A DNA stretch of 35,420 nucleotides from Desulfobacterales bacterium (GTDB lineage Bacteria; Desulfobacterota; Desulfobacteria; Desulfobacterales; UBA5852), in the NCBI GenBank assembly GCA_030065275.1, contig JASJCV010000014.1:1-35420 (forward strand). Direction: 5' to 3'. This document shows, one piece after another, positions 17,998-30,992 of this stretch (positions are counted from its first letter, which is position 1; each line of letters starts with the position of its first letter). The translations under genes were made by a program, and so were the position numbers. The notes under the pieces were generated by a model. The model was given only the letters and a program-made list of their open reading frames with translations. It made no database searches and was not told the origin of the DNA.

Positions 17998-19188
17998 ATG
18001 AAGGACGGCAACCCGAGTCTCGTGGACACTCTGAAACGGCAGGTAACCGCCGTGATCCAATCCCGGGGCCCGGACCGCCCGGCTTTCGCTGGCCTTCTGC
18101 GGATGCTGGCCATTACGTATGAAATCGCTGTGCGCCTGCGTGCCCGCTATTATCGACACCGACGGCCGCGCGGCCGCCAGCTGGCCTGCCGGGTGGTCTC
18201 GATCGGGAATCTGTCGGCCGGAGGGACGGGCAAGACGCCGCTGTGCATCTATCTGGCCCGCGTGATCCACGATGCCGGCCATCGGGTGGCGATCCTCAGC
18301 CGCGGCTACCACGGCGCTGCCGAAAGAACCGGCACGTTGATCGAGCCGGCGGAGGCGTCAGCGGCCGATGCCGGCCGGGCCGGGGACGAGCCGGTGCTCA
18401 TGGCCCGCCTGCTGCACCCCCGTTCGATTCCCGTGTATACGGGCCGCAATCGACTGGCCTCGGGCCGAAAAGCCCTGGCGCGATTCAATCCGGACGTCAT
18501 TCTGCTGGACGACGGGTTTCAGCATCAACAGCTCGACCGTGACATTGATGTTGTCCTTCTCGATGCCGAAGCGCCGCTGGGCAATGGTTATCTGCTCCCG
18601 CGCGGCCCGTTGCGGGAGCCGCCGTCCGCCCTTGCGCGGGCCGATATCCTCGTTCTGACCCGCTGCCCTTCCACCCCCGGTGGAAAGTCACCGGCCGATG
18701 TACGGCGGCAGCTGTATGCGGACCTGCCCGGGCTGGCCGCCAAACCTCTGTTTGCCTGCCGGCACCGTCCGGTGGGCCGTGAGCACGTTGAGGTCCACTC
18801 CGCGGACAGGTTCCGATCCGGCCCCTTGGATTTGGCAACGCTGAAGCATTTGCCCGTGCTGGCGTTTTCCGGTATCGCCCGCAACGATACCTTTCGCCGG
18901 ACGCTCATGGACCTGGGGGCCGATCTTCGCCGCTGGATCGCTTTTGACGACCATTATCGCTATCGGGCCGACGATCTGGAAAGCCTTGCCCGTGCGGGGC
19001 GCCGCGTGGCGGCCCGCGCGCTGGTGACCACCGACAAGGACCGTGTTCGGATTCAAGACGACTGGATTCAAGGCCTGCCGCTGCTGGTGATCGGGGTGTC
19101 CATCGATTTCGCCCCGGAACACGGGGCCTTTGAACGCCACGTGTTGGCCAAGCTGGGCATGGATGGCCACCGGGAGAAGAGCGTATGA
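17998..19188 (+). CDS. lpxK: tetraacyldisaccharide 4'-kinase
   Basis: Phosphorylates the 4' position of the lipid A disaccharide to give lipid IVA at the inner membrane. The product of ~396 residues contains the LpxK P-loop SIGNLSAGGTGKTPLCIYLA, SRGYHG, GDEPVLMARLL, LLDDGFQHQQLDRDIDVVLLDA and the C-terminal FDDHYRYRADDL and TTDKDRVR segments. ATG 17998 is just after the lptG stop; frames further upstream lie inside lptG. The residues before ARYYRHRRPRG are longer than in E. coli LpxK and poorly conserved. The stop overlaps the carbamoyltransferase start. Confidence 0.95.
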   Translation: MKDGNPSLVDTLKRQVTAVIQSRGPDRPAFAGLLRMLAITYEIAVRLRARYYRHRRPRGRQLACRVVSIGNLSAGGTGKTPLCIYLARVIHDAGHRVAILSRGYHGAAERTGTLIEPAEASAADAGRAGDEPVLMARLLHPRSIPVYTGRNRLASGRKALARFNPDVILLDDGFQHQQLDRDIDVVLLDAEAPLGNGYLLPRGPLREPPSALARADILVLTRCPSTPGGKSPADVRRQLYADLPGLAAKPLFACRHRPVGREHVEVHSADRFRSGPLDLATLKHLPVLAFSGIARNDTFRRTLMDLGADLRRWIAFDDHYRYRADDLESLARAGRRVAARALVTTDKDRVRIQDDWIQGLPLLVIGVSIDFAPEHGAFERHVLAKLGMDGHREKSV

Positions 19189-20906
19189 TTGTTCTGGGAC
19201 TTTCGGGCGCGCTGACCCACGATCCGTCGGCGGCCCTTTTCATCGACGGACACCTCGTGAGCGCTGCCGAGGAGGAGCGCTTCCTGCGGGACAAGCACGC
19301 CAAACGGCGCTGGCCGCTGCACGCTGCGCGTTATTGCCTGGAGGCCGCCGGCGTCGGTGCCGCGGACCTCGATGCCGTGGCCTTTCCCTTCGCCCCCTTC
19401 GGTCTGGGCCATCCCGGCCGCTGGCATTTCGCCCGCCGCTACTGGTACGCGCCCGATCGCGCCCTGAACGCGCTATTTAACGGCAACCGCCTCTTTCGGC
19501 GCAACCGCCGGGCCATCCTGAAGCTCATGCGCCAGTTGGAAATCGATCCTTCCCGTGCGCCATTCTGTCCCGTACCGCATCACCTGGCGCACGCCAGCAG
19601 CGCCTACCATATGAGCGGCTTCAGCGGCAAGACCGCCATCCTGGGCATCGACGGCAAAGGCGAATACGCCACGACGTTTTTCGGCTACGGCGAAAACGGG
19701 CGCATCCATACGATACGCGAGTTCTACGACCCCGACTCACTCGGCGGGGTCTACGGCGCCCTGACCCAGTATCTCGGATTCGAGATGCTCGACGGCGAAT
19801 TCAAGGTCATGGGCATGGCGCCCTACGGCGATTCCCGCAAACACGACTTCGGCCGTCTGATCCGCTGCAACGGCCGGTCGTTCAAGGTGAACACCCGCCT
19901 GGTCAACACGGTGGGCCTCAGGCGCTACAAACAAGACGGGCTGGGCTTTTATTTCAGCCCGGCTCTGATCGATTGGCTGGGCCCCAAGCGCGAGGGGGAT
20001 GAGATCGACGATCCGTATGTGGACTACGCGGCCAGCATGCAGGATCTTCTTGAGTCGATCGCGTTGCGGCTCGTCGATACCTATCTGGCGGACGTCATCG
20101 CCGAAACCGGCCGGATCTGTTTCGCGGGAGGGGTGGCGCTCAACGTCAAGCTCAACCAGCGCATCATCGCACGACCCGATGTCAAGGAGCTGTTCGTCCA
20201 GCCGGCGGCCAGCGATGCGGGGACCGCCATCGGCGCCGCTGCCTATGTCGCGCATGCGCGGGGCGATGCCGTCCGCCCGTTGAAGCACGTTTATTTGGGG
20301 CCGGCCTTCACGACGGAGGAATGCCGCCAGGCATGTGCGCGCCACCCGGACCGCCCGGGTTACCGTGTTGTCACGGACGCCCCCGCGGAGGCCGCCCGTC
20401 TTCTGGCTGACGGGCATCCGGTGGCCTGGTTTCAGGGCCGCATGGAATTCGGGCCGCGGGCGCTGGGCAATCGCAGCATCCTGGGTGACCCCAGCCGGCG
20501 GGGGATGGCCGACCGCATCAACGCGCAGATCAAATACCGTGAGCGCTGGCGGCCTTTCTGCCCCAGCATCCTGGACCGGGCGGCCGCCGACATCCTGCAG
20601 ACCCGCCATCCGGCCCCCTACATGACCCTGGCCTTCGATGTGGCCGAACACTGGAAGGCCCGCATCCCCGAGGTCGTTCACATGGACGGCACCGCCCGGG
20701 CGCAGGTGGTCACGCGCGAGACCAACCCGCGCTACTATGCGCTGATCGAGGCCCTGGAGGCGCGGCGCGGGATTCCAGTCGTCCTGAACACGTCGCTCAA
20801 CCGCCGCGGGGAGCCGATCGTCTGCACCCCCACCGACGCCCTGGACATGTTCTATGGCTCCGAGCTGCGCTACCTTTTTCTGGAAGATCTCTTGGTCAGC
20901 AAATAG
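19185..20906 (+). CDS. NodU/CmcH-family O-carbamoyltransferase, probably acting on LPS core
   Basis: Enzymes of this family use carbamoyl phosphate and ATP to make a carbamoyl adenylate and then carbamoylate a sugar hydroxyl. The 573-residue protein has the N-terminal Kae1-like ATPase domain (VLGLSGALTHDPSAALFIDG; histidine cluster HHLAHASSAYH at ~132-142; LGIDGKGEYATT; FAGGVALNVKLNQRI) and the C-terminal carbamoyltransferase domain (WFQGRMEFGPRALGNRSILGDP; PVVLNTSLNRRGEPIVCTP). Both domains look complete. Being ATGA-coupled to lpxK, it is probably an LPS enzyme; a family member carbamoylates core heptose in Pseudomonas aeruginosa, in a cluster that also contains LPS kinases. The acceptor here is inferred. 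Confidence 0.9.
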   Translation: MIVLGLSGALTHDPSAALFIDGHLVSAAEEERFLRDKHAKRRWPLHAARYCLEAAGVGAADLDAVAFPFAPFGLGHPGRWHFARRYWYAPDRALNALFNGNRLFRRNRRAILKLMRQLEIDPSRAPFCPVPHHLAHASSAYHMSGFSGKTAILGIDGKGEYATTFFGYGENGRIHTIREFYDPDSLGGVYGALTQYLGFEMLDGEFKVMGMAPYGDSRKHDFGRLIRCNGRSFKVNTRLVNTVGLRRYKQDGLGFYFSPALIDWLGPKREGDEIDDPYVDYAASMQDLLESIALRLVDTYLADVIAETGRICFAGGVALNVKLNQRIIARPDVKELFVQPAASDAGTAIGAAAYVAHARGDAVRPLKHVYLGPAFTTEECRQACARHPDRPGYRVVTDAPAEAARLLADGHPVAWFQGRMEFGPRALGNRSILGDPSRRGMADRINAQIKYRERWRPFCPSILDRAAADILQTRHPAPYMTLAFDVAEHWKARIPEVVHMDGTARAQVVTRETNPRYYALIEALEARRGIPVVLNTSLNRRGEPIVCTPTDALDMFYGSELRYLFLEDLLVSK

Positions 20907-22064: not shown

Positions 22065-22769
22065 TTAGCGGTCCATGCCTTCGATGGCACCCGCGGGCGT
22101 CATGGCCGCCAGGACGGGCGGCAGGCCGTGCTTGCGGACCGCCCGGCGCCAGCGTCGGCGGTAACGCGCCACCAGACGTGGCCGCGGACCGTTGTAGTGG
22201 CGGGCGCGATCGAAGTCGATGATCCAGGTTTCTCCATCGCCATCCACCAGTACGTTGCCCGGGTGCAGGTCCGGGTGGAGGATGCGATGGGCGATCAGTC
22301 GATCGATCTGCCGACAACAGCGCACCAGCGCGGCATCCAGCGACTCGGGTCGCTCGACGCTCAACTGGGCCAGCGAGGTCGCGACGGGCACCGCGCGGCT
22401 CACCAGCCAGCAGCGGCAGAACAGCCCCCCGCGGTAAGCCGTTGCGATCGGCTCCGGGGCGCGGATGCCCAACTGGCGCACTCGGTTCAGCCAGTCGAAT
22501 TCCCTATCGCTGCGGGGTGCACGCCACCTGAAATAGTGCTGCCGGTTGAACCGGGCGATCAGACCGCCGCGATAGTAGGACTTGACCACCACACGGCCGA
22601 TGTCGTCCAGCAACATTTCGGGCATGCGGCGGCGTCCGCTCAGCCGCATCCCGGATGGCTCGGCCTCGGCATGAAAGCACGCCACCAACTGATCCCGCTG
22701 GCCCCGGGTCAGTGGCTTAGCGGTCCGGAAGACATGCCCCTGATGAGGCTTTCGTATCGTATGCATCAT
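22065..22769 (-). CDS. LPS kinase of the Kdo/WaaP (PF06293-like) family
   Basis: A 234-residue protein-kinase-like enzyme expected to phosphorylate Kdo or heptose in the inner core. It shows a lysine in VVVKSYYRGG (ATP-binding lysine candidate), REFDWLNRVRQLGIRAPEPI, the catalytic loop LHPDLHPGNVLVD and the metal site IIDFDRARHYNG. The last motif is characteristic of Kdo kinase (KdkA-like) members. The start (ATG 22769) overlaps the TGA of the upstream GT9 gene. The frame is open much further upstream, but that stretch is the GT9 gene read in another frame. Confidence 0.88.
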   Translation of the reverse strand: MMHTIRKPHQGHVFRTAKPLTRGQRDQLVACFHAEAEPSGMRLSGRRRMPEMLLDDIGRVVVKSYYRGGLIARFNRQHYFRWRAPRSDREFDWLNRVRQLGIRAPEPIATAYRGGLFCRCWLVSRAVPVATSLAQLSVERPESLDAALVRCCRQIDRLIAHRILHPDLHPGNVLVDGDGETWIIDFDRARHYNGPRPRLVARYRRRWRRAVRKHGLPPVLAAMTPAGAIEGMDR

Positions 22770-23773
22770 GGTGCGGGCAATACCGATTCGAGTGCGTCGA
22801 GTACGACTTGCGGCTTCAGCGCCTCCATACAGGCCTGCGTCCCGGTCGGGCAATGCTGCTCGCCGTGGCGGGAGCAGGGTTTGCAGGCCAGCCCCTGGGC
22901 CTCCACCACCACGGCGTCGGGGTTTTGCCAGGGGCCGAAACCGAATGCGGGACTGGTGGCGCAGAAGACAACCACACAGGGCGTGCGAAAGGCCGAAGCC
23001 AGGTGCTGGGCCATACTGTCGTTGCAGACCACAGCGGCGGCATGCCTGACCAGTGTCATGGTTGCGGGCACGGATGTTCGCCCGGCCAGGTTGACGACCC
23101 CGAGGCCGCGGGCCACGCGGCGACTCACCGCCCGGTCCGCGGCGGCGCCCATCAGGAGGACGCGGTAGCCCCGATCGAGAAGGCGATCGGCCACCGTACG
23201 GAAATGATCCCAGTGCCACCGTTTGGTTTTCCGGGCGCTGCCCGGCACCAGAAGCACATAGGGCCTTGGATCTTGAATCTGAGCGGCCAGTTTGGAGTCG
23301 AGGCGGTCGACGGGCGGCGGGAAAAGCCGCAGCGAGGTGTCCAGGGCACGGAGGGGGGTTTCACCCGCGAGTAAACCCAGATTGCGTAGAACATCATGCG
23401 CATCGGTATCGCGCGCCTGTCGGGAATGAAAGGCAAATGCCAACTTGGCCGTGCGGAAGCCCGTGAGATGGGCAATGCCACTCAGGCGCAGCATCAAGGC
23501 GGTCCGATAGGAGCGTTGCAGGGCGTAGGCCCGGTCGAACCCGATGCGGCGCAGCCGACGGCTCATGCGCAGGATGCCGGTGAACCCCGATTCCCGGCCG
23601 CGCTTGTCGAACGCGATGACCCGATGAACCAGGGGATCGTCCGTGACCAGTCCCGCTGCCGCCGGTGTCGTCATCAACCATAATTGCGTGCCGGGATGAA
23701 GTTGATGCAGGGCGGCAATCAGGGGCGTCGAAAGGATGGTATCCCCCAGGTAGCTGGTTTGTACCAGCAGCAT
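22766..23773 (-). CDS. glycosyltransferase family 9, WaaF-like heptosyltransferase
   Basis: Putative ADP-heptose:LPS heptosyltransferase. The family N-terminus MLLVQTSYLGDTILSTPLIAAL begins at ATG 23773, followed by HPGTQLWLMTTP, YVLLVPGSARKTKRWHWDHF, VLLMGAAADRAVSRRVA, NLAGRTSVPATMTLVRHA and VCNDSMAQHLASAF, and a cysteine-containing C-terminal region (CKPCSRHGEQHCPTGTQACM). In-frame alternatives are GTG 23812 and TTG 23860. The candidate promoter just upstream would start transcription at about 23862, which makes TTG 23860 unlikely. Its TGA overlaps the start of the kinase gene. The large distance from the other GT9 in sequence suggests two different core linkages. Confidence 0.9.
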   Translation of the reverse strand: MLLVQTSYLGDTILSTPLIAALHQLHPGTQLWLMTTPAAAGLVTDDPLVHRVIAFDKRGRESGFTGILRMSRRLRRIGFDRAYALQRSYRTALMLRLSGIAHLTGFRTAKLAFAFHSRQARDTDAHDVLRNLGLLAGETPLRALDTSLRLFPPPVDRLDSKLAAQIQDPRPYVLLVPGSARKTKRWHWDHFRTVADRLLDRGYRVLLMGAAADRAVSRRVARGLGVVNLAGRTSVPATMTLVRHAAAVVCNDSMAQHLASAFRTPCVVVFCATSPAFGFGPWQNPDAVVVEAQGLACKPCSRHGEQHCPTGTQACMEALKPQVVLDALESVLPAP

Positions 23774-23922: not shown

Positions 23923-25230
23923 TCAGCCGGACCGCGGTTGATCGTTGAGGAGATCCCGGATGGCCCGGCAGGCCCGCGCGGTGCCTCCGCGATGGCGTTG
24001 AATAAAATCCGTGGCGCGGCGTTGCAGAATATGGCGTGGGGTAGGGTTTTCAATGGTCCTGATGAGCAGCCGGGCGGCCTGCCGCCAGTCGGCGGCCACA
24101 TGGACCATGCGTTCTTGAAAAGGTTCGGTTCCCACCCAACGGAAAGCACGCCAGTGGGGGCCGGTCACCGGTGCAACACCCCCCATCAGGGGCTCGAGAA
24201 AATTATGGCCGCCCAGCGGTTTCAGGCTGCCGCCGACAAAGGCCGCGGCGGCGTCCTGGTAGGTGCGGGTCAGTTCGCCGAAAACATCGCCGACGACAAT
24301 ACGGCCCCGGGCGATGGGGCCTTTGATCCGCGAGCGCCGCAGAACCGGGCGTTTCGCCGATCCGAGCCGCCGGCAAAGGGCGTCGATACGGTGCATATGG
24401 CGCGGAAAAACCCCGACGACAACATCGGGGCGGTGTCGTTGCAGCCGGGCGATCATCCGGTAGACGAGCGTTTCTTCCGCGCGATGAATCGAGCCCAAAA
24501 CGACGAACGGCGCTGTGGCGGGCAGGTGCCGCGTCCAGAATCGGGGCTGCGTGGCGGATCGCCCGACCGCCGGCAGGGGGATGCGGTCGAACTTCATGTT
24601 CGGCATGCAGGCGATGCGGTCGGGACCGAAGAGCCGGCCCAGCCGTTCGGCATTCGCGGGGTCGACGGCCAAAACGCGCGTCGGCGCCAGGTGCCGCCAC
24701 AGGGCCGGCCACAAGCGGTAGGCTTTCAGGCTGCGCGAGCGCAGGCGCGCGTTCACCATGATGACGGGAATATCGGCCTGGCGCAGGGCAAACAGAAGCC
24801 CGGGCCACAGTTCGGTCTCCAGCAGCACCATCAAGCGGGGCTTGAGACTCGATACCGCGCGTCGCATGACGGCGGGACGGTCGAACGGGAAATAATGAGT
24901 TTGCAGACGTCCGTCGACGAGGCCGGGGGGCAAACGCTTTGCCGCGGCCGCCAGAATGTCCATCCCCTGACGGGTGTTGGTCGTGGTCAGAATCCCCCGA
25001 TCGGTTTCATTGGCCAATCGCTCCGCAAGCATCCCGGCCAGGTAGGATTCACCGGCCGAGGCGGCCTGAATCCAGATGTCGGCCGGGTGCCGGAAGGGCC
25101 TGGCCAAGAGGCGCTCGGCAAAACCTTCACGCAGTTTGACGTGGCGCTGCAAGGCCGGCAGCGCGGGTTTCCAGAGCTGATCGTAGGCCCCCATAGCCCA
25201 GCGGAGCGTTTGCGGAATGGTGTGGGTCAA
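23923..25230 (-). CDS. waaA: 3-deoxy-D-manno-octulosonic acid transferase
   Basis: Adds one or more Kdo residues from CMP-Kdo to lipid IVA at the inner membrane. GT30-family features: an N-terminal amphipathic/anchor segment (WAMGAYDQLWKPALPALQ), IWIQAASAGESYLAGMLAERL with the conserved Glu, TTNTRQGMDIL, YFPFDRPAVMRRA, MVLLETELWPGLLFALRQ, PVIMVNARLRSRS, MPNMKFD, VLGSIHRAEET, and the C-terminal GGSLKPLGGHNFLEPLMGGVAPVTGP. The start is uncertain. The frame opens at TTG 25302, which the promoter at 25311-25339 would place almost at the transcription start. TTG 25230 gives ~435 residues, close to E. coli WaaA (425); ATG 25194 is the next choice. Confidence 0.94.
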   Translation of the reverse strand: MTHTIPQTLRWAMGAYDQLWKPALPALQRHVKLREGFAERLLARPFRHPADIWIQAASAGESYLAGMLAERLANETDRGILTTTNTRQGMDILAAAAKRLPPGLVDGRLQTHYFPFDRPAVMRRAVSSLKPRLMVLLETELWPGLLFALRQADIPVIMVNARLRSRSLKAYRLWPALWRHLAPTRVLAVDPANAERLGRLFGPDRIACMPNMKFDRIPLPAVGRSATQPRFWTRHLPATAPFVVLGSIHRAEETLVYRMIARLQRHRPDVVVGVFPRHMHRIDALCRRLGSAKRPVLRRSRIKGPIARGRIVVGDVFGELTRTYQDAAAAFVGGSLKPLGGHNFLEPLMGGVAPVTGPHWRAFRWVGTEPFQERMVHVAADWRQAARLLIRTIENPTPRHILQRRATDFIQRHRGGTARACRAIRDLLNDQPRSG

Positions 25231-25310
25231 TGTCTCCGGACGCTTTCGACAGCGCTTTTCTCTCCCTGGCCCGGGCGCACGCACGCCGCCGGGCGATTGC
25301 AAAACGCCGC

Positions 25311-25490: not shown

Positions 25491-26327
25491 ATGCCCGCAA
25501 CCCATATCGTCGAAGTCGGAAACATCCGCTGCGGATCGGATCGGCTGTTTCTGATCGCCGGCCCCTGTGTCATCGAAGACGAAACCACCATGATGCGCAC
25601 GGCCGAGCGATTGAAAATCGTCGCGGCGCGACTGGATCTACCGCTGATTTTCAAGTCTTCTTTCATGAAGGATAACCGCAGTGCGATGGAGCATTATCAT
25701 GGCCCGGGACTGGCGGACGGTCTCGCCCTGCTGGCCCGTATCCGCGAAGCCTTCGACCTGCCCGTCATCACCGATGTGCATTACCCCGAGCAGGTGCCGG
25801 CGGTGGCCGCGGTCACGGATGTGGTCCAGATCCCGGCTTACTTGTGCATGCAGACATCGCTGGTGATGGCAGCGGCACGGACGGGGCTTCCCGTCAACCT
25901 GAAGCACGGACAGTTTCTGGCTCCGGCCAATATGATCAAGCCGGTTGCCAAAATCGAAACGACCGGGTCGCATCGGATCCTTTTAACCGAGCGTGGCTAT
26001 ACTTTCGGATACAACGATCTGGTGGTCGATCCCCGCAGCTTCTATGAACTGCGGCAGACCGGTTATCCGGTGGTCTTCGATGTGACCCACAGCATACGCC
26101 GCTACGGCATCCCCAGCAAAGACCCGCGCGGCAGCCGGCGCGAATATCTCAATACGATTGCCCGCGCCGGCGTGGCCGCCGGCGTTCACGGTCTTTTCGT
26201 GGAAGCCCATCCCGAACCGGCCGACGCCCGCTGCGACGCCGCCAGCCAGGTGCCGCTGAGCGAGCTGGAGACGTTCCTTAAACCCCTGGTCGAAATCCAC
26301 GCCCTGGTCAGCCGTCAAGGTGAATGA
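25491..26327 (+). CDS. kdsA: 3-deoxy-8-phosphooctulonate (Kdo-8-phosphate) synthase
   Basis: Condenses phosphoenolpyruvate with D-arabinose 5-phosphate to Kdo-8-P. The 278 residues show the DAHP/KDO8P synthase barrel: LFLIAGPCVIEDE, IFKSSFMKDNRSA, VITDVHYPEQVPAVAAVTDVVQIPAYLCMQTSL, NLKHGQFLAPANMIKPVAKI, RGYTFGYNDLVVDPRSF, VFDVTHSIRRYGIPSKDPRG, and the C-terminal GLFVEAHPEP. PAYLCMQT (a Cys where many members have Arg) is notable: KdsA enzymes of the metal-dependent class use a Cys near the N-terminus, here C567-type numbering cannot be assigned without alignment, but GPCVIE supplies such a Cys. The downstream gene is 55 bases away and carries KdsD-like CBS domains, so both likely serve Kdo supply. 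Confidence 0.96.
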   Translation: MPATHIVEVGNIRCGSDRLFLIAGPCVIEDETTMMRTAERLKIVAARLDLPLIFKSSFMKDNRSAMEHYHGPGLADGLALLARIREAFDLPVITDVHYPEQVPAVAAVTDVVQIPAYLCMQTSLVMAAARTGLPVNLKHGQFLAPANMIKPVAKIETTGSHRILLTERGYTFGYNDLVVDPRSFYELRQTGYPVVFDVTHSIRRYGIPSKDPRGSRREYLNTIARAGVAAGVHGLFVEAHPEPADARCDAASQVPLSELETFLKPLVEIHALVSRQGE

Positions 26328-26382
26328 CCGGGCCGGTCCTCAAACGGCGGTACCGCACCCAAATGGCGATGAAAGGGTCTTA

Positions 26383-27408
26383 ATGCAATTATATCTCGAT
26401 TCCGCGGATTTTCAGGAGATCGAACAAGCCTTCCAACTGGGCTTCGTTCAGGGGCTCACCACCACGCCGACCTTCATGCACCGGCACGGCATATCCGATA
26501 TCGACGGCGCCATCGTCAAGCTTTCCGGCATGGTGCCCGAACTGCATGTGGAGGCGCTGGGCGAATCCTGCGAGGAAATCGTGGCCGAGGCCCGGAGGAT
26601 CGTTGCCCTGCCGCTGGTGCGCGAGCCCGTCTTCAAGGTACCGGTTTCCCTCGAAGGTCTGCGGGCCTGTAAACAGCTGGTGGATGACGGCCATCGGGTC
26701 AATGTTCACCTGGTCTACACCCTGAACCAGGCCTATATGGCCATGGCGGCGGGGGCGTCCTATGTCTGTCCCCTGGCCGGACGACTCCAGGATCAGGGCC
26801 ACGATGCGCTGGCCCTCTTCGAACAGTGCGTCCAGGTGGTGGATCGATACGATTATCCCACGCGCATCATGTTCTCCTCGGTGCGCTACCCCGAACACGT
26901 GCGCCGGGCCGTGCAGTTGGGCGTGCATGTCTGCACCGTTCCCTGGAGTGTCATGCAGCGGCTGTGTGACAACACCCTCACCACCGAAGGCACCCATCAG
27001 TTCTGGGAGCATACGCGCCTGATGACGGTCAAGGTCAAGGACGTGATCCGCCCCCACAACCCGGTCTGCCGCCTGGAGGACACCGTCAACCAGGCCCTGG
27101 TCAAAATGACGGCCTCACGCATCGGCGCGGTGTCACTGGTGGACGCACAGGGCGGGTTGGCCGGCGTCTTCACGGATGGTGACATTCGCCGCAAGCTGCA
27201 GGCCTATGGTCCCGCCGTGCTCGATCGCCGCATGGCGGATACCGATTTCACCGCCACGCCCGTCACCGTCAACGCCGATGCCCTGGTGTACGAGGCCGTG
27301 AACCTGTTCAACAGTCACCAGATCGACAATATCGTGGTGCTGGAAGACAATGTGCCCACGGGCATTCTGGACATCCAGGACCTGGTCCAGATGGGCTTGC
27401 TCGGTTGA
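26383..27408 (+). CDS. transaldolase/fructose-6-phosphate aldolase-like domain fused to a KdsD-type CBS pair
   Basis: A 341-residue two-part protein. Residues 1-213 follow the fructose-6-phosphate aldolase (FSA/TalC) barrel almost column for column: MQLYLDSAD with Asp6, GLTTTPTF, the Schiff-base lysine at Lys85 in VFKVPVSLEGL, VCPLAGRLQDQG with Arg134, and Ser166. Residues ~217-341 are two CBS motifs (KDVIRPHNPVCRLEDTVNQA; GVFTDGDIRRKL; NSHQIDNIVVLEDN; GILDIQDLVQMGLLG) that look like the C-terminal half of arabinose-5-phosphate isomerase KdsD. The SIS domain that makes KdsD an isomerase is absent. ATG 26383 is chosen because GAAAGGG precedes it and it aligns with the FSA N-terminus; the frame extends to ATG 26320 inside kdsA. 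Residues aligned with FSA Asn28, Thr109, Ala129 and Tyr131 are Thr, His, Cys and Leu, so the substrate probably differs. Function is inferred. Confidence 0.85.
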   Translation: MQLYLDSADFQEIEQAFQLGFVQGLTTTPTFMHRHGISDIDGAIVKLSGMVPELHVEALGESCEEIVAEARRIVALPLVREPVFKVPVSLEGLRACKQLVDDGHRVNVHLVYTLNQAYMAMAAGASYVCPLAGRLQDQGHDALALFEQCVQVVDRYDYPTRIMFSSVRYPEHVRRAVQLGVHVCTVPWSVMQRLCDNTLTTEGTHQFWEHTRLMTVKVKDVIRPHNPVCRLEDTVNQALVKMTASRIGAVSLVDAQGGLAGVFTDGDIRRKLQAYGPAVLDRRMADTDFTATPVTVNADALVYEAVNLFNSHQIDNIVVLEDNVPTGILDIQDLVQMGLLG

Positions 27409-27426
27409 CATGCGGGGCCGCAACGG

Positions 27427-28383
27427 TTGACGACACCCGCCCCATCCCGGCGTGCTGACCGCGCGGCGGCCGCGATCGCCCGATGGATTGGGGCGGTCGA
27501 ACCGGCCCGGCTTCGGCGGATCGGCCGTTTCATCGGCCGGCTGGCCTACCTTCTCGACCTTCGCCACCGCCGTATCGTTTCCCGGAATCTGGCCTTTGTT
27601 TTTCCCGACAGCGACCGCGATGTCAACGCGCGCCTGGCGCTTCGCAGTTTCGAACACTTCGGCATGCTGGTGCTGGAAAACATTCAGGCCCTGGTGCTGC
27701 CGCGGGAGGCCTTTGGCCGGCGGATCCGCATCGAGGGGCTTCCGATCCTGGAAGCAGCGCTGGAACAAACCCGGGGTTGCCTGCTTTATTCGGGGCATCT
27801 GGGCAACTGGGAATTGGGACTGCTGGCCGGTGCGGCCATTTTCAACCGTACGGCCCTGACCGTGGCCAAACCCGTCAAATTTAAGCCGGTCCACCGCCTG
27901 CTGACGGCATTAAGATCCCGTTTCGGTAATCGGGTGGTGTTCAAAAAAGGTGCGCTGCAGTTGATGACCCGCGCCTTGCGGGAGGGGCAAACCCTTATCA
28001 TGCTGATCGATCAGGGGGTGCGGCGGCCCGAGTCCGTTGAAATTCGGTTTTTCGGCAAACGCACGCTGGCCTCACCGGCCGCAGCCTACCTGGCCTATCG
28101 ATGCCGGGTGCCGGTGGTGCCGATTTTTTGTGTGCGTGCGAGCGACGGCGATTACCGTCTCCACATTCTTCCGCCGGTCGAGCGCCCGCGGACAGGAGCG
28201 CTCAAAACCGATATCCAGGCGTTCACCCAAATGTTGATGGACACGGTCGAATCCGCCATAAGGCGCCACCCGGAGCAGTGGTTCTGGTTTCACAAGCGCT
28301 GGAAAAGGACCTATCCCGAGCTTTACCCGGAGTATCAGATCCTGCGTCGGCGCCGACGGCGCCGAAAGGGACGGCAGCCCTGA
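27427..28383 (+). CDS. lpxL: LpxL/HtrB-type lysophospholipid acyltransferase
   Basis: Late lipid A acyltransferase that adds a secondary acyl chain to Kdo-lipid A. The 318 residues include an N-terminal helix region, the family HX4E motif in YSGHLGNWELGLLAGA, KFKPVHRLLTALRSRFGNRVV, LIMLIDQGVRRPESVEIRFFGK, PVVPIFCVR and WFWFHKRWK. TTG 27427 is the only reasonable start; no in-frame ATG exists before the conserved helices, and the nearby ATG at 27410 stops after six codons. It lies 18 bases after the aldolase-CBS gene, in the Kdo-dependent lipid A block. LpxL versus LpxM/LpxP type cannot be separated by eye. Confidence 0.88.
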   Translation: MTTPAPSRRADRAAAAIARWIGAVEPARLRRIGRFIGRLAYLLDLRHRRIVSRNLAFVFPDSDRDVNARLALRSFEHFGMLVLENIQALVLPREAFGRRIRIEGLPILEAALEQTRGCLLYSGHLGNWELGLLAGAAIFNRTALTVAKPVKFKPVHRLLTALRSRFGNRVVFKKGALQLMTRALREGQTLIMLIDQGVRRPESVEIRFFGKRTLASPAAAYLAYRCRVPVVPIFCVRASDGDYRLHILPPVERPRTGALKTDIQAFTQMLMDTVESAIRRHPEQWFWFHKRWKRTYPELYPEYQILRRRRRRRKGRQP

Positions 28384-28438: not shown

Positions 28439-29233
28439 ATGAAACCATCGCCGATTGGCCGGGAGGATTTTGTCGCGGACCGCTGGCGCCAACGCTTCGA
28501 GGCGTGTGAATTGACGGATTTCGAGCGTCTGTGGGCATTGGACCTGCCGGCCCTGGATGACGTCAACACGTCGCGGGGAGGGATCAGCACGGTGTCGCTG
28601 CTGGCATTGGGACCTCCCGGGAGCGAATATCCCCGGCTGATCGTCAAACGACAGCGAAACCATCTCAGCCGCACGTGGCGACATCCCCTTAAGGGCATTC
28701 CAACCCTTGAAAAGGAATATACCAATCTCCGGCGCTTTGGTCGCTGCGGTCTGCCGACGGCGGCCCCCGTGCTGTTTGCCCGCCGACGGGACGATTGCGG
28801 CATACGCGCCATTCTCGTCACCGAATATCTCGAAGCGTATCATGCGTTCGACACCCTCCTGGAAGAATGGGCCGGGGGGGCGCCCCCTGATGGCGGCGAC
28901 CGGGAGGCGATTCTGCACGCGGTGGCCGATTTGCTTGCACGCATGCATCGGGCCGGCTGGCGGCACAATTGCCTCTATCCCAAACACGTCTTTGTAAGCC
29001 GCCGGCAGCCTCGGCCGGACGCCCGTTTGATCGACCTCGAAAAAGCCCGCCGCATACTGGGTCCCAAGCACCGGATGAACCGGGATCTGGCCGCCTTTTT
29101 CCGGCGCTCCCCGCACTGGTCCGCCTCGGATCAGGCCTGCCTGCTGGTTCACTACCACGGGGGCGGGCGGATGACACCGGACATCGCCCGCACCTGGCGC
29201 CGAATTCAACGCCGCATGGCCCGTAAAGGATGA
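28439..29233 (+). CDS. InaA-like member of the LPS kinase (Kdo/WaaP) family
   Basis: A 264-residue kinase-fold protein. The ATP-binding lysine candidate is in LIVKRQRNHLSRTWRHPLKGIPTLEKEY, a pattern typical of InaA proteins (the Glu-bearing helix is in LEKEYTNLRRFG). The loop GWRHNCLYPKHVFV occupies the catalytic-loop position and LIDLEKARR the metal site. Compared with active WaaP/KdkA loops (HxD....N), the Asp is Asn and the later Asn is His, although IDLEKAR keeps the metal Asp. This may be a normal variant of the InaA branch or a sign of lost or altered activity. GAGGT lies about five bases before ATG 28439. It stands 55 bases after lpxL and 70 bases before the convergent tandem kinase gene. 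Confidence 0.85.
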   Translation: MKPSPIGREDFVADRWRQRFEACELTDFERLWALDLPALDDVNTSRGGISTVSLLALGPPGSEYPRLIVKRQRNHLSRTWRHPLKGIPTLEKEYTNLRRFGRCGLPTAAPVLFARRRDDCGIRAILVTEYLEAYHAFDTLLEEWAGGAPPDGGDREAILHAVADLLARMHRAGWRHNCLYPKHVFVSRRQPRPDARLIDLEKARRILGPKHRMNRDLAAFFRRSPHWSASDQACLLVHYHGGGRMTPDIARTWRRIQRRMARKG

Positions 29234-29303: not shown

Positions 29304-30848
29304 TCAGGCGGCCCCGTTGCTTGCACGGGCTGCGGCACGCTTGACAGCGCCCCGCGAATTCGCAAAGGCGCTCCGGAGCGCGTCATGCACCCGGCTGCCC
29401 TCCGGCCAGTTGTCCAACAGGCGTTGGCAGTCTTTGCGGAAGTGGCGTTTGAAGCCCTGCGGCGAGCGGACGATCTGTAGACCGTCCAGATCCATCAGAA
29501 AAAGCCGGCCTGCGTCGACGACGAGATTGGTGGCCTTCATGTCGCCGTGGCGGATCTGTGCGGCATGGAGGCGGTCGATCAGCCCGGTCAGAGCGGGGAG
29601 TGCGTGCATGTGCCGATCGATGGTTTGACCGTCTCGCGGCCAGTGTACGGACAGATTGACGCCCGCCTGATGGTCGCAGATCAGGAAGGCCCGCGCGCGG
29701 AAGGGCCCCCAGCGCTCTTCGATCAGCGCCCGCGGCGGTGGGGTGTCGATCCCGATCAGCTGGAGCATGTGGGCGTTGCGCCACGCCGTGCGGCCGCGGC
29801 TGGAACGCAGGCAGCGGCGCAGGAGATGCCACCGGTTTTTCAAGTTGTAGCGTTTGATCACCAGGGTCCGGCCATGATGACGAACACGGACGACGGTCGC
29901 ACTGTTGCCTTCCTTGAGGGGATGCCCCGCGTCCATCGTCCGGTCGGGATCATCCAGCAGCGGCTGAATGGCATCCGTATGCCACTGGCGGTCGTAGGCC
30001 GCGTAGCGCCGCCAGCTGCGGCGAACAGCGATATCCGTGCAATTGCGGGTGACTTTGGCCGCCCGCCGTCGCATGCGCTTGTGGCGGCAGCGTCGCATCA
30101 GGTGTTTCAGTTGCCGGAGGCGAGCCGGATGGTCCCCCAATCCGCGCTGCTGTTCATAGGCCTCTAAGGCCTCGGGCGCCCAGCGCTCGGCGTCCGGGTC
30201 GAACTGGACCAGGAAATGGGCCAGGTTGGCCAGGCGGCGGCGCCGGCGCAAGAACGCCGGCGGCGGCAACGCCCGCACGGCATCGCCGTCGATCATCAAA
30301 ACCTGGTTGGGGGCGACCAGAAAATTGCCGGGATGGACGTCCCGCTGGACATAGCCGCAGCGATGCAGGCGGGCGATCAGACGGGCGCATGTTCCTATCA
30401 TGATTCGGCGCGCCGGGTCTTCCGCGTCCGGCCAGCAATCCGCCAGGCTGCGGGCCCCCGCGACGGCGGAGGTCAACACCAGGGGGGTCTTTTCATCCTC
30501 CAGGGTGGTCGGGCGCAACAGGGCCGGGGTGGGAATGCCGGCCTGCTGCAGCGCGGCAATGCCCGCACGCTCACGCCGGAAGTGGCGCCGGGCATGCCGG
30601 GGCGCCAGGAACAGCTTGACAATGACGTCGTCGCCTTTGGCCCGGGAAGCGCGGCAGACCAGGCGTTTTCCGGGCAGATGCCGCAATACGGCCCGGCAGG
30701 TGATGATCTCGCCCGAATCGCCGGCGGACAGGCGCAGGCGAAACGGCGCCCGCAGATGCCGCTGGGCCCGGCGCAAGCGATCAGGTCGGATGACTTCCGG
30801 CGATGGAACGCGCGGGCGGTTCCCCGGATTTGCCTGGGATGCGGTCAT
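29304..30848 (-). CDS. LPS kinase-like protein with two kinase domains in tandem
   Basis: About 514 residues containing two complete-looking kinase cores in one chain. First core (~45-240): VIVKLFLAPRHARRHFRRERAG, catalytic loop YVQRDVHPGNFLVA, metal site LMIDGDAVRAL. Second core (~310-490): GNSATVVRVRHHGRTLVIKRYN, catalytic loop IRHGDMKATNLVVD, metal site LFLMDLDGLQIV. Both keep the catalytic Asp and Asn. The intervening stretch is very basic and contains WRRYAAYDRQW. The family (Kdo/WaaP-like) and setting suggest phosphorylation of two core positions or an active/regulatory pair. ATG 30848 is preferred; GTG 30857 is an in-frame alternative, and neither has a clear ribosome-binding site. It is convergent with the InaA-like gene and divergent from the Trm112 gene. 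Confidence 0.85.
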   Translation of the reverse strand: MTASQANPGNRPRVPSPEVIRPDRLRRAQRHLRAPFRLRLSAGDSGEIITCRAVLRHLPGKRLVCRASRAKGDDVIVKLFLAPRHARRHFRRERAGIAALQQAGIPTPALLRPTTLEDEKTPLVLTSAVAGARSLADCWPDAEDPARRIMIGTCARLIARLHRCGYVQRDVHPGNFLVAPNQVLMIDGDAVRALPPPAFLRRRRRLANLAHFLVQFDPDAERWAPEALEAYEQQRGLGDHPARLRQLKHLMRRCRHKRMRRRAAKVTRNCTDIAVRRSWRRYAAYDRQWHTDAIQPLLDDPDRTMDAGHPLKEGNSATVVRVRHHGRTLVIKRYNLKNRWHLLRRCLRSSRGRTAWRNAHMLQLIGIDTPPPRALIEERWGPFRARAFLICDHQAGVNLSVHWPRDGQTIDRHMHALPALTGLIDRLHAAQIRHGDMKATNLVVDAGRLFLMDLDGLQIVRSPQGFKRHFRKDCQRLLDNWPEGSRVHDALRSAFANSRGAVKRAAARASNGAA

Positions 30849-30992
30849 GGCCGTCACTGATACTAGCTAATGGGCCGGAAAGCAATTGGACCGCGCCTCC
30901 GGCACGCGGAAGTTCCGATCGGGGCGTTGCCGTTTCAGGCGCCTGGGGATGCATCGATCACGGCGGCGCCCGTTGGCGCAAAACGGACCGAT

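Follow-up and report, generated by a model that had tools for sequence, protein, structure and literature searches.

How an outer-membrane sugar is built when the enzyme that usually supplies its precursor cannot be found is the question raised by a locus of a Desulfobacterales bacterium. Almost universally, Kdo connects lipid A with the remainder of LPS, and we know of no described bacterial route to the D-arabinose 5-phosphate (A5P) used for Kdo that does not run via SIS-domain isomerases. In the window, by which we mean the whole analysed stretch of 35,420 nucleotides, one gene beside a kdsA variant encodes the CBS pair of such an isomerase, with a transaldolase-like barrel where the SIS isomerase domain stood. 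A recent list of three prokaryotic routes to D-arabinose includes no aldolase (PMC11301363), and our search of the open literature, as distinct from subscription papers, returned no earlier TAL/FSA-CBS fusion or aldolase-based Kdo route.

Architecture of the fusion protein

The fusion gene comprises the following features:

26371-26377, plus strand: Shine-Dalgarno-like GAAAGGG, 5' of the ATG at 26383 (sequence)
26383-27408, plus strand: FSA/transaldolase-CBS fusion, 341 aa (domain profiles, alignment, AlphaFold2 model)
26383-27009, plus strand: TAL/FSA barrel, aa 1-209 (Pfam, alignment, fold)
26464-26466, plus strand: T28 codon, Asn in ordinary TAL/FSA (GVTTNPS to GLTTTPT; alignment)
26635-26637, plus strand: codon of the invariant Schiff-base lysine K85 (alignment)
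26707-26709, plus strand: H109 codon, Thr in ordinary TAL/FSA (NVTLIF to NVHLVY), invariant in the fusion family (alignment)
27019-27405, plus strand: KdsD-type CBS pair, aa 213-341, with TDGDIRR motif (profiles, structure matches, model)

The open reading frame runs from the ATG at 26383 to a stop ending at 27408 and encodes 341 aa. An earlier note, made from the letters of the window, had described an aldolase barrel followed by a KdsD-type CBS pair, and profile search recovered both domains: the N-terminal part belongs to the TAL/FSA family PF00923 (Pfam TAL_FSA, aa 3-204, E=4.7e-32; 111.9 bits, cut-off 27), and two CBS matches follow (E=5.6e-16). The AlphaFold2 model has a mean pLDDT of 88.7 and a pTM of 0.58, with a mean pLDDT of 92 for the CBS pair. 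A chance fusion or assembly artefact was ruled out, since the protein is conserved at full length in 24 aligned relatives from several phyla. In one assembly (L023, 7929-9018) the gene is split into two reading frames, one for the barrel and one for the CBS part, likely by a frameshift.

The C-terminal ~125 aa align with the CBS stretch of models for KpsF/KdsD (TIGR00393 positions 153-265, E=3.3e-17; KdsD model, 5e-14; GutQ model, 8.5e-11). KdsD CBS pairs came out best in profile, PDB-sequence and fold searches alike, and the nearest solved CBS structures by sequence and fold are the arabinose-5-phosphate isomerases 4o9k, 3k2v and 3fna, the identity to solved KdsD CBS structures being 26-34%. 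With KdsD, KpsF and GutQ the fusion thus shares the CBS pair, the kdsA link and, putatively, A5P as product. It differs from them in the barrel that stands in place of the SIS isomerase domain: TIGR00393 aligns solely at positions 153-265, and the score of 62.9 bits is far under the KpsF cut-off of 203.7. We take the ligand of 4o9k to be CMP-Kdo, which would amount to pathway feedback. For the adenine-nucleotide sensing proposed earlier there is little basis, the nearest CBS structures being those of KdsD proteins.

The barrel matches transaldolases in fold (Z 27-29) and is 31-34% identical to small transaldolases, among matches that also include FSA, and ~34% to the TalC-type protein of the window genome. 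It shares with FSA and TalC the fold, the Schiff-base lysine, Asp6 and the phosphate-site residues, but departs from them in N28T, T109H, Leu at position 131, the CBS pair and the Kdo gene context, and it scores only 149.2 bits with TIGR00875, the F6P aldolase/transaldolase equivalog (cut-off 245.95). Nine residues are invariant in the 24 aligned sequences: D6, T28, E57, K85 (on strand 4), N107, H109, R134, S166 and R168. By the roles of the equivalent residues in TalB and FSA, we take R134, S166 and R168 to form the acceptor phosphate site, and the Thr replaced by H109 to be the holder of the catalytic water in FSA/TAL. The invariance of D6, E57, K85, N107, R134, S166 and R168 indicates that the Schiff-base machinery and the acceptor phosphate site are retained, and the side of the pocket for the dihydroxyacetone hydroxymethyl group appears altered, as would be expected if the Schiff base were formed not with a ketose but with glycolaldehyde or an aldose.

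Distribution of the fusion and absence of KdsD

Short peptide patterns, run against 84,980 species genomes, gave 26 loci, nearly all with a full-length relative at 60-91% identity; taken over the whole family, full-length relatives are 58-91% identical. The carriers belong to the Desulfobacterota, Gammaproteobacteria, Bacteroidota and Aminicenantes, with one record labelled Nitrospira; since such patterns catch fairly close relatives only, the fusion is probably more widespread than this. Among 241 genomes surveyed from the window's order, all at least 80% complete, there were 12 carriers, seven of them in genomes outside the first set, and the merged sets comprise 33 carriers (as matching coordinates show, G185, G089, G169 and G124 duplicate the assemblies G001-G003 and G023). 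Within the order the carriers span several families, and they recur in other phyla. Those with named records are all metagenome assemblies, several of them incomplete; the window genome is 81% complete.

Profile search of the window genome found no SIS-domain KdsD, the KpsF model matching CBS regions only. KdsD went undetected in 26 of the 33 carriers, including the window genome and its sisters, and a complete single-contig 4.2 Mb carrier of the Bacteroidota (G012) is also without it. Within the first set, 19 of the 25 other carriers gave no SIS-domain match, and in the order survey KdsD was undetected in 11 of 12. Across the 241 genomes kdsA was found in 211 and KdsD in 200, and among kdsA-positive genomes the fusion occurred in 10/22 without KdsD against 1/189 with it (p=1.7e-10 with phylogeny ignored, a value that overstates independence, as the carriers share ancestry). 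Incompleteness alone is unlikely to account for the missing KdsD, given this association, the complete genome of G012 and the 97-99% completeness of the sisters. The earlier proposal of a non-orthologous KdsD replacement therefore gains support from the window genome and from the 26 carriers as a whole; a normal kdsD elsewhere, which the same proposal had named as evidence against itself, does occur in the remaining seven.

Six of these seven carry a second, canonical kdsA together with a canonical kdsC, and the exception (G189) is the sole KdsD-positive carrier with a single, variant kdsA. In the first set, carriers without KdsD have one kdsA each and the six with KdsD have two. Twelve kdsA-positive genomes of the order have neither KdsD nor the fusion; their KdsA is canonical and half are less than 90% complete, so that incompleteness or an unknown route may be the cause. 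Both these 12 genomes and the seven KdsD-positive carriers count against a KdsD replacement.

The kdsA variant, the KdsC-like gene and the LPS locus

The fusion starts 55 bp after its kdsA neighbour in a lipid A/LPS locus with these flanking genes:

23923-25302, minus strand: waaA (Kdo transferase), grouping with WaaA of KdsD-positive relatives of the order (profile match, tree grouping)
25491-26327, plus strand: kdsA', a KDO8P-synthase variant with KDNRS for KANRS, M120 for Arg and R203 for Gln (profiles, alignment, tree)
27427-28383, plus strand: lpxL-type lipid A acyltransferase, directly 3' of the fusion, HAD' lying between the two in sister genomes (domain match)

The window also holds LpxB, LpxK, a heptosyltransferase and Kdo/WaaP-type kinases; this context is one of Kdo and lipid A and lends no support to the heptose or S7P alternative once entertained for the gene. 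KdsA' scores as a KDO8P synthase with PRK05198 (331.3 bits, cut-off 242) and borders the cut-off of TIGR01362 (313.8 bits, cut-off 314), and like canonical KdsA it keeps the GPC, THS and CD motifs. Unlike canonical KdsA, it belongs to a clade of its own: in a 47-sequence KdsA tree a branch with 100/100 support divides the 23 sequences linked to the fusion from all others, which include canonical KdsA from this order as well as the second, canonical copy that two carriers possess. The KdsA' of other carriers are 62-86% identical to the window gene, canonical KdsA 40-50%. The fixed differences are A61D (KANRS to KDNRS), F117Y, R120M, K139H, Q203R, P205Y and N252S; KDNRS and CMQT occur in 23/23 variants where 14/14 canonical sequences have the Ala of KANRS and the Arg of PAFLxRQT. 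From the adjacent subunit, the canonical Arg 120 presumably contacts the phosphate of A5P.

The linkage to kdsA noted earlier was borne out by the neighbour survey, with kdsA' directly upstream of the fusion in 30/33 carriers and in the same operon-like arrangement across phyla. Every carrier has a kdsA, if only, in G077, as a 70% identical kdsA' fragment beside a fusion at the contig end, where no full match was found. In the genomes sampled from the order every kdsA' accompanied the fusion, as could result either from linkage or from a private intermediate; low-scoring kdsA genes of KdsD-positive genomes were considered as fusion-less kdsA' and rejected, being 44-48% identical to the window gene and, in four of five cases, truncated. 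Upstream of kdsA' in G189 (L098, C1:875611-876102) lies a short KdsB match with an internal TGA, in an otherwise complete single-contig genome; a frameshift, an assembly error and a pseudogene are the alternatives.

A third gene, the KdsC-like HAD', was found at E<=1e-50 in 27/33 carriers and in 0/16 control genomes, mostly directly downstream of the fusion. Pairwise distances of kdsA', the fusion and HAD' correlate with r of 0.73-0.76, above the 0.46-0.51 obtained with KdsB, as for a unit travelling together. The HAD' fold matches KdsC and KDN-9-phosphatase models, whereas its score of 60.5 bits (cut-off 208) and its different substrate loop set it apart from KdsC. In the window, HAD' is absent between the fusion and lpxL (27405-27483), unlike in the sisters G002 and G003, and it is absent there in the nearest relative, G001, too; as no gene matching HAD' or KdsC was found in the rest of either genome, both are left without an assigned Kdo8P phosphatase. 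In two KdsD-positive carriers a class III aminotransferase gene directly follows HAD' (L017, 2771-4162; L019, 8098-9414); its best models are glutamate-semialdehyde aminomutases, under cut-off, and it was considered as a Kdo8N-type gene.

The later steps look ordinary. Carrier KdsB proteins are diverse and have the usual motifs, and five of the six genomes with both gene sets have a single copy of KdsB, so one KdsB serves both. In other Desulfobacterota carriers, as in the window genome, WaaA groups with that of KdsD-positive members of the order. A specialised KdsB or WaaA that would mark a different sugar was sought in the window's order and not found, an extra, separate waaA clade beside the module being limited to gammaproteobacterial carriers. 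With ordinary KdsB and WaaA the steps after KdsA and KdsC appear unchanged, and the end product is probably Kdo; with the sites of the barrel (N28T, T109H) and of KdsA' (A61D, R120M, Q203R) remodelled, the intermediate or the sugar could yet differ from A5P or Kdo.

A candidate aldolase route to arabinose 5-phosphate

That the fusion is a non-orthologous A5P source replacing KdsD, working by aldolase chemistry under KdsD-type CBS control, is the best-supported reading, towards which we lean, if only slightly. The class I (Schiff-base) aldolase of TAL/FSA fold would supply a pentose phosphate, most simply A5P, to the adjacent KdsA', with K85 forming an aldimine with C1 of an aldose. Glycolaldehyde might be added to G3P, or R5P might be converted to A5P by a retro-aldol/aldol sequence or an H109-aided proton shift at C2; the second option, with R5P converted inside the site, is attractive given that free glycolaldehyde has no evident source. 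The CBS pair would let a pathway product, CMP-Kdo for instance, exert feedback control, and HAD' (in the window genome, some other phosphatase) would dephosphorylate the KdsA' product before ordinary KdsB and WaaA complete the pathway.

Several lines converge on this reading: the missing KdsD in most carriers and the association within the order; the kdsA of all carriers and the doubling of kdsA and kdsC in six of the seven that have KdsD; the coupling to the kdsA' clade across phyla and to HAD'; a CBS pair nearest to those of KdsD; the conservation of K85, D6, E57 and R134/S166/R168 while donor-side residues change; and the shared KdsB of five dual genomes together with the grouping of WaaA with KdsD-positive relatives. 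Precedents for A5P point the same way. FSA makes it in vitro and in engineered cells, FsaA joining glycolaldehyde and G3P, and TalB F178Y yields A5P, with R5P as by-product (PMC6298115, PMC9947464); the TAL/FSA scaffold can therefore reach A5P with the right stereochemistry, and the title of one solved structure found by fold search (3upb) is that of a covalent transaldolase-A5P complex. What remains odd if A5P is supplied is that the fixed KdsA' changes A61D, R120M, Q203R and N252S lie at presumed A5P-site positions.

Carriers that seemingly lack KdsD and have kdsA' with the aldolase-CBS fusion suggest that bacteria possess a second, as yet undescribed way of making an essential outer-membrane sugar. 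If natural, such a route would explain Gram-negatives that are kdsA-positive and KdsD-less, would be the counterpart of the engineered glycolaldehyde and G3P shunt, and would mean that a catalytic domain was swapped beside a retained KdsD-type regulatory domain.

Alternative explanations

The changes in the active sites of the barrel and KdsA' could instead mean, as the main alternative, that KdsA', the fusion and HAD' make a 3-deoxy-ulosonic acid that resembles Kdo without being Kdo: the barrel would build some other aldose phosphate (from glycolaldehyde and a different phospho-aldehyde, say), KdsA' would add PEP, and permissive KdsB and WaaA would accept the product; KdsD-less carriers would then hold another sugar in Kdo's place. 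The divergence of HAD' from KdsC, the strict coupling of kdsA' to the fusion, the keeping of both complete sets in dual genomes and the waaA clade that travels with the module in Gammaproteobacteria all fit this idea. We nevertheless consider it rather unlikely, since KdsB and WaaA are ordinary and lineage-like in the window's order and in the Bacteroidota carriers, five dual genomes run both sets on one KdsB, and the stereochemistry of the barrel with G3P would give arabinose. It seems quite unlikely that the trio forms a second pathway complete in itself, passed between phyla, in which a sugar phosphate made by aldol chemistry, but not A5P, gives a Kdo analogue.

It is improbable that the barrel has ceased to make a precursor and that the fusion acts on KdsA' as a regulator or scaffold under CBS gating, A5P coming from another enzyme such as a GlmS-type Ru5P isomerase. 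The replacement of the catalytic-water Thr109 and of Asn28 would suit such a protein; the invariance of the Schiff-base lysine, Asp6, Glu57 and the phosphate-site residues in 24 sequences from several phyla is unlike a decayed enzyme, and as GlmS is near-universal the tracking of KdsD loss by the fusion would be left unexplained. The idea draws on eukaryotic GFAT, which turns Ru5P into A5P by isomerisation and can stand in for the missing API in an E. coli mutant (PMC11301363, a study that used the A5P-auxotrophic K-12 kdsD gutQ double mutant). Were the fusion just a pentose-phosphate transaldolase or F6P aldolase of the ordinary kind that happens to lie beside kdsA, the fold and the similarity to the TalC-type protein would agree, yet we reject this most improbable case: two ordinary transaldolases are encoded elsewhere in the window genome, the fusion is far under the FSA/TAL equivalog cut-offs (149 against 246 bits) with N28 and T109 replaced, and it is linked to kdsA' and a KdsC-like gene in several phyla. 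The reading as an A5P source remains the one we prefer.

Other features of the locus and genome

Two KdsB-type genes occur in the window genome (G000, C191:8821-9501 and C274:6980-7666), in which one kdsA was found. A carbamoyltransferase gene at 19185-20906 adjoins the lpxK and heptosyltransferase genes and is kept beside the module in the related loci L001, L002, L003 and L023 of Desulfobacterota; carbamoylation of an LPS core sugar is a possible role. The locus also contains three homologues of Kdo/WaaP-type LPS kinases, at 22065-23219, 28439-29233 and 29304-30857.
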